NCBI RefSeq assembly: GCF_004054195.1
Contig: NZ_SBIW01000003.1
Location: 372,001 to 436,000, forward strand
DNA from: Mucilaginibacter gilvus
GTDB taxonomy: Bacteria > Bacteroidota > Bacteroidia > Sphingobacteriales > Sphingobacteriaceae
Length of the DNA: 64,000 nt
Direction: 5' to 3'
Position 1 is the first letter of the stretch. Each line of letters starts with the position of its first letter. Under the pieces are notes generated by a model, which saw only the letters and a program-made list of their open reading frames with translations, ran no database searches and was not told where the DNA came from. Position numbers and translations under genes: made by a program. Shown here piece after piece: positions 53,616 to 56,168 of this stretch.

Positions 53616-53623
53616 CAATTAGT
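53616..53623 (+). repeat. left target-site duplication
   Basis: CAATTAGT immediately before the left terminal repeat; an identical copy follows the right terminal repeat at 56161-56168. Confidence 0.9.
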
Positions 53624-53644
53624 GGTAGTGTATCAGTTTGAAAT
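53624..53644 (+). repeat. left terminal inverted repeat (21 bp)
   Basis: Perfect inverted match to 56140-56160; starts GGTAGTGTATC and ends TTTGAAAT. Confidence 0.93.
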
Positions 53645-53658
53645 CGGGCTATTTATAC

Positions 53659-53689
53659 TTGATGCTTGACCGAAGAAGTACTAATTTTG
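53659..53689 (+). promoter_or_regulatory. promoter of the first passenger gene
   Basis: TTG (53659-53661) followed after 20 bp by TAATTTTG (53682-53689), which matches the Bacteroidota sigma-A consensus TTG-N20-TAnnTTTG, 25 bp before the ATG at 53715. It lies just inside the left end of the element. Confidence 0.55.
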
Positions 53690-53714
53690 CTTTGTCTTAT
53701 AACTTATACGAATA

Positions 53715-53930
53715 ATGGCAAAGAGAGATATTAACGAAACGGCGTTCTTTATACTGGAACAGGTAACAGGTGAGAACCCAATAGAGCATGTAAAGAATGA
53801 ATCAGCGGTTGCGCTCGGGCGTTTAGGAGGCTTGAGAGGCGGTAAAGCGAGAGCGGACAAGTTAACCCCCGAACGGCGTAAAGAGATAGCCCAGAAGGCT
53901 GCAGCAAAGCGGTGGGGTAAAAAAGATTAG
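53715..53930 (+). CDS. small basic protein with GGLRGGKARA motif, passenger of the element
   Basis: A 71-residue protein with a helical N-terminus and a basic C-terminal half: ALGRLGGLRGGKARADKLTP followed by ERRKEIAQKAAAKRWGKKD. This kind of GGxxGGKARA/KKAAxxRW tail is frequent in small uncharacterised bacterial proteins, some annotated as histone-like or RNA-binding. Binding to nucleic acids is suggested by its charge only. It is the first gene inside the left end of the insertion element and has its own promoter. Confidence 0.75.
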   Translation: MAKRDINETAFFILEQVTGENPIEHVKNESAVALGRLGGLRGGKARADKLTPERRKEIAQKAAAKRWGKKD

Positions 53931-54029
53931 TAAAAAAGTGTTACATTTGATGGAACGAAATTAAAGACGCATATGAGCCCCGTAGATCGAAATTAGTACG
54001 GTTCGAAACGGAACAAAGTAGTGAGGGGA

Positions 54030-54542
54030 TCATGTGGATTTTAAATCTTCAATCATTAATTCTATTTTATCTGATACTCTATTAATATCAGCAATTAATT
54101 TTTGATATTCTTTCTCTGAATACCAAAGTATCTTTACACTGTCTCTAAATTCCGCTAATCCAATAATATTTTCGTCAATTGTAGATGGCATTACCATTAT
54201 ATAATGGGCGAAATAAATTCTATGGTCGTTTAATCTTCTTATTTCATCAAAAAGCGCACTTTCTGGATATTTGTTGTTTTTGGATTTTTTAAACCCATTC
54301 TTTACCGACCTCTTATCTATAATCGATTTAAAAGATGCTCTCTTTGCCTCAAAAGTTAGCCTATCCAACAGCACATCTGACATTTCGTTTTGCATATTGC
54401 TATCTCCCAAAAAATAGGTAACGATAAACCTTTCAATCTTTTTTTCAAGACCGGAAAATTCATTTATGAGCAAACCTCTTAAATAGTGGCCATGGTTCAA
54501 ATGATTGAATTGCAATTCAGTTATATCTAATTTTTTGCTCAT
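54030..54542 (-). CDS. hypothetical protein with HEPN-like motif, passenger of the element
   Basis: A 170-residue helical protein (start at the ATG at 54542; an earlier TTG is less likely). Its core helix contains RRLNDHRIYFAHY with Arg108 and His113 in the R-x4-H spacing of HEPN nucleases, preceded by a long helical N-terminal half. Similar short HEPN-like proteins occur in toxin systems and as stand-alone regulators. It is encoded against the transposase and the first passenger gene. No partner antitoxin is clear, though the small basic protein and the 123-residue ORF are candidates. The assignment is by motif only. Confidence 0.65.
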   Translation of the reverse strand: MSKKLDITELQFNHLNHGHYLRGLLINEFSGLEKKIERFIVTYFLGDSNMQNEMSDVLLDRLTFEAKRASFKSIIDKRSVKNGFKKSKNNKYPESALFDEIRRLNDHRIYFAHYIMVMPSTIDENIIGLAEFRDSVKILWYSEKEYQKLIADINRVSDKIELMIEDLKST

Positions 54543-54629
54543 ATAGTTGTTTTGTGGTGACAAAATACAGGTTATTATATATATAACAACAACACATCGA
54601 ACTATTTAATTTCAAAATGATTTTTATGC

Positions 54630-54658
54630 TTGACAAATGATATTAATCATTATGTTTG
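54630..54658 (+). promoter_or_regulatory. possible transposase promoter
   Basis: TTGACA (54630-54635) and TATGTTTG (54651-54658; TAnnTTTG type), 18 bp between TTG and the box. The ATG at 54663 is only four bases after the -7 box, so the transcript would be leaderless or nearly so. Confidence 0.4.
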
Positions 54659-54662
54659 CAGT

Positions 54663-55547
54663 ATGAATTCGTTACCAACAGAAAAGAGAGTACAGATAAT
54701 CAATTGCCTTGTTCAGGGCGTTAGTTTACGGGGTACGTCTGAAATTACCGGAGCATCCGTAAATACTATCACCAAAGTATTAGTTGATACTGGCAAGGCA
54801 TGCCAAATATTCCACGATGAAAATGTACACTCATTAAATACCACCCGTGTGGAGTGTGATGAGATATGGTCGTTTGTCGGGATGAAAGATAGAAAGGCTA
54901 CAGCAGCGGACAAAGCGGACGGTATGGGTGATGCTTGGACTTGGACTGCCATAGATGCTGATAGTAAAATGATTGTTTCTTACTTGGTTGGTAACAGGGA
55001 TGCAACATCAGCTAACGAATTCATGCTTGACCTAAAGAGCAGGTTAAACAACAGGGTACAATTAACAACAGATGGTTTAAAGGCGTATGTAGAGGCTGTA
55101 AGGAACTCTTTCGGTCGTAAGGTAGACTTTGCCCAGTTGGTGAAGATATACGCCTCTGACAACCCTAAAGGCGCAAGGAAGCACACGGAGAGCCGTTATA
55201 GCCCCTCACCACTTACTAAAACAGAAATTAAGTATGTTTCGGGCAATCCTGATAGCAAATTAGTTTCAACCTCTTATGTAGAGAGGCAGAATTTAACCAT
55301 GCGTATGCACATGCGCAGGTTTACGAGGTTAACTAATGCATTCAGCAAGAAGTTAGAGAACCATTGTTATGCAATATCGTTGCACTTTGTTTATTACAAC
55401 TTCTGTAAGATACATAAGACACTACGTGTTACTCCTGCAATGGAAGCGGGGATAATGAAAGATGTAATGAGCATTAAGGATATTGCCAACCTTGCAAGGA
55501 TTGAAGCACCTAAAACAAGGGGAGCATATAAAAAGAAAGTAGCCTAA
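54663..55547 (+). CDS. IS1-family DDE transposase (single ORF)
   Basis: A 294-residue transposase, start at 54663. An N-terminal HTH is visible in SLRGTSEITGASVNTITKVL. The DDE set is Asp66 (VECDEIWSFVG), Asp137 (LTTDGLKAYV) and Glu207 (SYVERQNLTMRM), with the IS1-like block MRRFTRLTNAFSKKLENH after it. The zinc-finger N-terminus of classical InsA is not present, and no programmed frameshift is needed. It mobilises the surrounding 2537-bp element through the 21-bp ends. Confidence 0.92.
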   Translation: MNSLPTEKRVQIINCLVQGVSLRGTSEITGASVNTITKVLVDTGKACQIFHDENVHSLNTTRVECDEIWSFVGMKDRKATAADKADGMGDAWTWTAIDADSKMIVSYLVGNRDATSANEFMLDLKSRLNNRVQLTTDGLKAYVEAVRNSFGRKVDFAQLVKIYASDNPKGARKHTESRYSPSPLTKTEIKYVSGNPDSKLVSTSYVERQNLTMRMHMRRFTRLTNAFSKKLENHCYAISLHFVYYNFCKIHKTLRVTPAMEAGIMKDVMSIKDIANLARIEAPKTRGAYKKKVA

Positions 55548-55596
55548 ATAATTATAATTTGATTAGGTTTATAACCCACAAAAAACCTAATATCCA

Positions 55597-55968
55597 ATGA
55601 ACAAATTACCCTATACTTTTTCTAAGGTTATAATAACAAATCAATCCAATGGGCATAAAAATATCGCTTTTGTGATTGATAATATCATAAACGCATCAAT
55701 GCTATATGCTGTAATTGGACAGTCACAAGATGCTTATATTGTATATCGACGGGTGAGCGATTATTATTTAGATGTGATAGTTACTTTCCATGATTTAGAA
55801 CAATATATTGAGGTCAATTACACAGAAGTTGAAGTCCCTGATTTCGCTACTATTATAGATAACCAACTAATCACAACTATGTCATTGTGTTATCCTCTTG
55901 CTGAGGGACAGTTTGGTGTGTTAAATGAACCGATTCCTCTAAAATACCATAACGCTCAAAATAGCTAA
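55597..55968 (+). CDS. hypothetical passenger protein (123 residues)
   Basis: An ORF downstream of the transposase, inside the element. It encodes a beta-rich protein beginning MNKLPYTFSKVIITNQSNGH with no recognised domain. Its last 92 bases overlap an opposite-strand ORF (55877-56071). Which of the two is used is uncertain. It could be part of the mobile element cargo. Confidence 0.45.
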   Translation: MNKLPYTFSKVIITNQSNGHKNIAFVIDNIINASMLYAVIGQSQDAYIVYRRVSDYYLDVIVTFHDLEQYIEVNYTEVEVPDFATIIDNQLITTMSLCYPLAEGQFGVLNEPIPLKYHNAQNS

Positions 55969-56071
55969 TAGGGGTGGTTATTATCGCTCCCTCTTTTAAT
56001 GGCCATTGTTCTCTCGGTATGTCTGATTTAAGCAATGATTCTTCGCTGAATAAATACTCTGTCTTTTCCAT
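55877..56071 (-). CDS. alternative 64-residue ORF at the right end of the element
   Basis: This minus-strand ORF starts MEKTEYLFSEESLLKSDIP and continues REQWPLKEGAIITTPISYFE, with protein-like composition, but overlaps the 123-residue ORF. It might be a small regulator or a chance frame. Low confidence. Confidence 0.35.
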   Translation of the reverse strand: MEKTEYLFSEESLLKSDIPREQWPLKEGAIITTPISYFERYGILEESVHLTHQTVPQQEDNTMT

Positions 56072-56139
56072 AATACTATTTTATTTAATCCCCCAAATCC
56101 CATTACCACAAGTTATAACGGTAATTAAACTACCTTTAT

Positions 56140-56160
56140 ATTTCAAACTGATACACTACC
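56140..56160 (+). repeat. right terminal inverted repeat (21 bp)
   Basis: Perfect inverted match to 53624-53644; ends with ACACTACC. Confidence 0.93.
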
Positions 56161-56168
56161 CAATTAGT
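56161..56168 (+). repeat. right target-site duplication
   Basis: CAATTAGT immediately after the right terminal repeat, identical to 53616-53623. Confidence 0.9.

Follow-up and report, generated by a model that had tools for sequence, protein, structure and literature searches.

What is a small HEPN-like gene doing inside an insertion sequence, and which of its neighbours, if any, acts together with it? The question arises from a first-pass annotation of a 64,000-nucleotide stretch of the genome of a Mucilaginibacter soil bacterium (the window), in which a 170-residue protein was read as HEPN-like cargo of an insertion sequence and the 71-residue basic protein encoded beside it as its possible partner. 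The analysis described here upholds the cargo but not the partner: a structured RNA encoded between them is a better candidate for that role than the 71-residue protein.

A HEPN-type passenger gene in an IS1 element

The HEPN gene is cargo of an IS1-family element of 2,537 bp (53624-56160; Table 1), within which it is divergent from the transposase gene. The transposase is of the IS1-type DDE class (Pfam PF03400, 42.9 bits against a cut-off of 24.1; it also matches the NCBIfam IS1 model at E 2e-19, which lies under that model's own cut-off) and, together with the 21-bp terminal repeats and the 8-bp duplication (8-9 bp being typical of the family), provides the features by which the IS1 family is recognised. 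That the gene lies in an insertion sequence, as had been claimed, is borne out by the perfection of these repeats, by the duplicated CAATTAGT, by the transposase itself, and by the relative L194, in which the genes that flank the element in the window are contiguous and thus represent an empty site. The element is present as a single copy. The transposase is its only open reading frame with a Pfam match, and the two right-arm frames have no relatives in the libraries searched; they overlap, and one of them may be spurious.

Table 1. Features of the element in the window and of the viral RNA copies (coordinates are those of the window or, where named, of the viral contig)
Feature	Coordinates	Strand	Remarks
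Target-site duplication, left copy	53616..53623	.	8 bp, CAATTAGT
Left terminal inverted repeat	53624..53644	+	21 bp, perfect
71-aa basic protein	53715..53930	+	Part of the IS1-subgroup backbone; tail to tail with HEPN gene
Match to Bacteroidota -7 promoter element	53942..53949	+	TACATTTG, just upstream of RNA
Structured RNA	53965..54038	+	74 nt, conserved core, overlaps HEPN stop codon; folding, alignment, covariance model
RNA outer helix	53970-53976 / 54030-54036	+	
RNA inner helix	53978-53981 / 54025-54028	+	
K-turn-like GA/GA internal loop	53985-53986, 54023-54024	+	
HEPN-type protein gene	54030..54542	-	170 aa, R108/H113; ORF, family alignment, AlphaFold2 model
IS1-family transposase	54663..55547	+	294 aa from listed start; longer ORF starts at 54630
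Right-arm cargo protein	55597..55968	+	123 aa, no assigned function
Right-arm ORF	55877..56071	-	64 aa, overlaps 123-aa ORF
Right terminal inverted repeat	56140..56160	-	
Target-site duplication, right copy	56161..56168	.	CAATTAGT
RNA copy in L169	6042-6115	-	IMG/VR viral contig
RNA copy in L168	9467-9540	+	IMG/VR viral contig

The 170-residue reading frame and its Arg108 and His113 within RIYFAH are exactly as first described: translation gives R108-I-Y-F-A-H113, a spacing that fits the R-x4-6-H motif of the HEPN superfamily. The first-pass annotation had made conservation of these two residues a touchstone of its reading, and R108 and H113, with A112 and K67, are identical in 41/41 full-length homologues; given this invariance, the RxxxxH motif is not a chance occurrence. 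In the published definition, the Rx4-6H motif of the four-helix bundle stands where helix 3 ends or the helix 3-4 loop begins, and the residue directly after the arginine is usually N, D or H; in the KEN domain, the counterpart of that N contributes to catalysis (PMC3710099). The polar residue is present in 39 of the 41 full-length homologues as N109; I109 takes its place only in the window protein and in L027, the homologue nearest to it. HEPN proteins also have a second conserved acidic residue, typically within Ex3[KR]; a candidate here is residue 33 in the first long helix, E in 39 homologues and D in two. It is possible that RNase activity has been lost or tuned in these two proteins.

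Structure prediction agrees with this placement. In the AlphaFold2 model of the window protein (mean pLDDT 89.6) helices span residues 7-44, 48-57, 64-81, 95-113 and 143-169, which bears out the helical core claimed earlier; in this model and that of the relative L031 (mean pLDDT 95.9) the motif closes helix 3 (95-113 in the window protein) and is followed by a beta-hairpin. HEPN proteins make up the majority of the best structural matches: the leading VIA-align ranks are 2hsb (Z 7.6-8.0), MtlR (~7), HepT and other HEPN toxins (6-6.7) and Csm6 (~5), although for helical bundles Z values below 13 can arise by chance and the weight lies in the number of HEPN structures among the leading rows. 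Foldseek alone found no significant match in the PDB, nor any among viral models, where one phage protein reached a probability of 0.99 and a TM score of 0.54 at E 0.055. The window protein has no match in Pfam, NCBIfam, PADLOC or PHROGs, and PDB profile searches returned nothing; a PDB sequence match to the 'Toxin' 8bgm (E 0.14) was dismissed as chance, the alignment containing no shared R-x4-H. The weak Pfam matches of the relatives are nonetheless enriched for HEPN families (E 0.0009-0.06), but none of these (Apea, Swt1, RiboL-PSP, Cthe_2314, Abi_2) individually reaches its curated cut-off. The modelled fold, the invariant motif at the position given in the published definition, the structural neighbours and the recurrent weak Pfam matches support the earlier claim of HEPN-like cargo, and the protein is best placed, from its sequence and predicted fold, in a new family of the HEPN superfamily. 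Its catalytic activity is putative, with I109 as a caution, and a toxin-like character is plausible.

The company of the HEPN gene

Homologues of the HEPN protein were found in 21/301 genomes of the same family and 40/400 of the same order. Whether they always lie in IS1 elements had been posed as a check, and they do not: some relatives are carried by IS1595-family elements, and others lie at loci where no bounded insertion sequence is seen. Fourteen of the 43 homologous genes found by the HEPN searches and examined lie in bounded elements, namely the IS1 element of the window and 13 IS1595-family elements, whose terminal repeats match at 20-25 of 25 positions and each of which has an 8-bp target duplication; one more HEPN-bearing IS1595 element, L148, was met through its transposase. 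In nearly all bounded elements the HEPN gene is adjacent to and divergent from the transposase gene. At the remaining loci no bounded element was found, and L029 resembles a decayed IS1595 copy. When the IS setting is mapped on the HEPN tree there are 11 changes of state, no better than with shuffled labels, so gain and loss of that setting look frequent; no single clade of IS-borne genes is seen.

Two of the IS1595 elements carry, besides the HEPN gene, a gene with the SocA/Panacea antitoxin domain PF13274 (L027 9052-9528, E 2e-21; L033 9769-10248, E 9e-23), and are insertion sequences stacked with toxin-antitoxin-like cargo. IS1595-family elements of the window's genus (L145-L164) have varied cargo beside the transposase, much of it without recognised identity.

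The 71-residue protein had been described as divergently encoded and as a possible partner. Its gene is in fact convergent with the HEPN gene, their tails lying 99 bp apart. Three related IS1 elements (L111, L112 and L113), all without HEPN and with different cargo, have a homologue of it at their left end; in this IS1 subgroup the basic protein, which ends in ...LTPERRKEIAQKAAAKRWGKK, is thus always encoded close to the left terminus. In L112 (3354-5164) the HEPN slot holds a two-gene cargo that encodes a P63C-like protein and an IrrE-like peptidase, each scoring under its Pfam cut-off; L113 has a similar-looking pair, and L111 one protein without recognised identity. Since the 71-aa gene occurs in IS1 relatives that have no HEPN gene, it belongs to the IS backbone, and it is moreover absent from all HEPN-bearing IS1595 elements. 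That the two proteins form a toxin-antitoxin pair, to which the adjacency, small size and basic character of the 71-residue protein would lend themselves, is therefore contradicted by its presence without HEPN and its absence with it, as well as by the convergent gene order, and we consider it highly improbable. Nor do the HEPN-bearing elements share any other protein partner besides the transposase: the third protein cluster that they have in common is antisense to the transposase, and no MNT nucleotidyltransferase is common to those examined.

A structured RNA at the 3' end of the HEPN gene

What these elements can share is an RNA. It is encoded in the 99-bp gap, tail to tail with the HEPN gene, which it overlaps by 9 nt. 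The sole block common to the IS1 element of the window and the IS1595 element of L027 consists of the HEPN gene and ~64 nt past its stop codon (73% identity overall); HEPN gene plus RNA is all that the IS1 and IS1595 elements have in common. Within this pair the RNA flank is better conserved than the block as a whole and has a sharp edge, as 56 of the 66 nt 3' of the stop codon (85%) are identical against only 22/60 just upstream. The same RNA core is found in L033 although its HEPN protein is only ~38% identical.

Folding favours the plus strand (-21.4 kcal/mol, against -11.7 for the minus strand), and with flanks included the plus strand gives z scores of -2.9 to -3.1 in the window but only about -0.8 in L027. 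In an alignment of five sequences, five pairs of the outer helix have changed in a compensatory manner, and 87% of cells are paired as against 30-56% after sliding; the inner loop is almost invariant in sequence. One strand of a GC-rich helix is followed by three nucleotides and a GA, then by an inner part, a second GA and the opposite strand of the helix; this order is what we take to be the signature of a kink-turn, recognised here from sequence rather than from a solved structure. A descriptor of such k-turn stems matches 8/44 HEPN 3' ends and 5/624 other gene 3' ends (p 2e-9, an optimistic value since the descriptor was set after several of these sequences had been viewed; the match in L098 was new to it). 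Bacteroidota promoters have a -7 element, TAnnTTTG, and a match lies upstream of the RNA at 4/6 loci, where 0.03 per locus would be expected.

Apart from two viral contigs, strong copies of the RNA were found nowhere but at the 3' ends of HEPN genes carried by IS1 or IS1595 elements. A covariance model run on 399 genomes gave three such copies, all three at the 3' ends of IS-borne HEPN genes, and recovered L031, which was not in its training set, at E 0.004; a scan for the RNA pattern alone returned L033, L027 and one chance match from the genome contigs and two real matches from the viral contigs. The weaker covariance-model matches (E 0.008-0.09) are attributed to chance, those inspected lying mostly inside unrelated coding genes, as are a match inside a gene of Limnobaculum (L167) and pattern matches in the viral contigs L191 and L192. 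The phage and plasmid collections contained no relative of the HEPN protein or the RNA, and Rfam no match for the RNA, its sub-threshold results (animal miRNA, lncRNA, a staphylococcal sRNA) being taken as chance.

In bacteria the strong core is confined to three loci and the k-turn form to eight of the 44 homologues, the other 3' flanks having unrelated structures or none that is obvious. There is also a second recurring element, the 13-mer AAATATTTAAGAT, with four occurrences on the two strands of 1.5 Mb; three of them directly precede hairpins at HEPN 3' ends (L099 6021, L100 5866 and L103 6303), which may represent another class of this RNA.

Could the RNA serve merely to regulate the 3' end, limiting the HEPN transcript as a terminator or as antisense RNA from the convergent strand? 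The 9-nt overlap and the unrelated hairpins at the same place in other homologues would suit such a role. A terminator, however, needs no conserved loop, yet the core is kept where the outer helix changes (L033 and the viral L169); the strand asymmetry favours the plus strand, and L169 carries the RNA without any HEPN gene. On balance we regard this explanation as unlikely.

Of the two viral contigs, L169 is a phage, with genes for a terminase large subunit and a portal protein, and its RNA is placed between a 105-aa ORF on the terminase side and the portal gene; the contig has no HEPN gene, and the RNA adjoins a non-HEPN gene. In L168 what follows the RNA is a HEPN remnant of the C-terminal ~50 residues, the catalytic part being absent. 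By analogy with the pseudo-ToxI of phage TE, an RNA mimic that serves as a decoy (PMC3475682), these copies, two cases only, would resemble decoy antitoxins, as neither is accompanied by an intact toxin gene. The position of the RNA in L169 could also be read to mean that it is an independent, phage-derived hitch-hiker, and I109 in the window protein that the HEPN cargo has little catalytic power and serves some other purpose; but the RNA lies exactly at HEPN 3' ends in 3/3 bacterial copies, in L031 and at the remnant in L168, and we find this quite improbable.

A possible RNA-controlled toxin and its known counterparts

The reading that we favour is of a HEPN toxin cassette neutralised by its RNA in a type III-like manner, in which toxicity, transcription of the RNA and neutralisation are inferred and to which we assign an even chance of being right. 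It draws on the computed HEPN fold, motif and family, the borders of the elements, the conservation, folding, strand bias and HEPN linkage of the RNA, and the viral copies. A two-part cassette, a putative HEPN endoribonuclease gene and a small tail-to-tail RNA, would have been loaded onto IS1 here and IS1595 elsewhere. The RNA, probably transcribed from its own promoter, would form a hairpin whose internal loop is k-turn-like, and would bind and silence the HEPN protein, much as RCd22 does AbiF. If the RNA were then lost, whether because a phage shuts down host transcription or because the element itself is lost, the RNase would be freed and growth would stop; viral RNAs without an intact toxin gene might then act as decoy antitoxins. 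Several features sit less easily with this reading: there is a single RNA unit, convergent with the toxin gene rather than upstream of it, the gene beside the RNA of L169 is not a HEPN gene, residue 109 of the window protein is I, and Foldseek alone gave no significant PDB match.

The RNA might instead be needed for the action of the HEPN protein rather than for its inhibition, as Cas13 and DRT proteins are served by their ncRNAs. An RNA-activated or RNA-guided HEPN effector would account for the movement of RNA and gene together between IS families, and a near-invariant inner loop is what one would expect of a protein-bound scaffold. There is, however, no guide-like variable segment, and the retention of the RNA by viral contigs that lack a working HEPN gene is better suited to a decoy than to a cofactor, so that an effector of this kind seems distinctly unlikely to us.

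Returning to the RNA as antitoxin, it is tempting to go further and propose a new class of HEPN toxin with a convergent, k-turn-like RNA antitoxin, spread by two unrelated IS families and countered by phage copies of the antitoxin RNA; we offer this fuller proposal tentatively, as possible rather than probable. If it is true, suicide modules under RNA control travel on simple insertion sequences, whose persistence would be easier to understand and which would become carriers of phage defence; RNA-neutralised HEPN toxins, so far represented by AbiF, would be known with another, unrelated RNA and from Bacteroidota; and there would be a ready test case for phage antitoxin decoys. The openly available literature searched contained no account of the RNA or of HEPN cargo in IS1 or IS1595.

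The closest counterpart is AbiF, an Abi_2 HEPN protein neutralised in a type III-like manner by the adjacent RNA RCd22, which lies upstream of abiF, is co-transcribed with it and has two motifs (PMC12373285). In both cases a mobile element carries a HEPN gene with a small structured RNA next to it, but the window family has no Abi_2 match above threshold (one relative reaches E 0.06), its RNA has no Rfam match, including to the abiF motif RF03085, and is a single unit convergent at the 3' end, and its carrier is an insertion sequence rather than a prophage. The type III systems ToxIN, TenpIN and CptIN (PMC12373285) likewise pair an RNase toxin with an RNA antitoxin, as proposed here, and phage RNA mimics are known for them (PMC3475682). 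One feature of type III, a structured RNA gene beside the toxin gene, is present at this locus, and the RNA would be the antitoxin; however, the toxin fold is HEPN where theirs is ToxN, and the RNA is single, convergent and on the 3' side, in contrast to their tandem repeats, which are upstream and co-transcribed. With the HEPN-MNT (HepT-MntA) toxin-antitoxin systems, among them TnSod9 in a Tn3-family transposon (PMC7157771), the cassette shares the HEPN fold and the carriage of a HEPN toxin as a transposon passenger, but the HEPN-bearing elements examined share no nucleotidyltransferase or other partner gene. Finally, in their borders, transposases and 8-bp target duplications the elements resemble known IS1 and IS1595 elements with passenger genes, and differ from them in the recurrence of HEPN cargo and in a HEPN-RNA cassette that is common to the two families.
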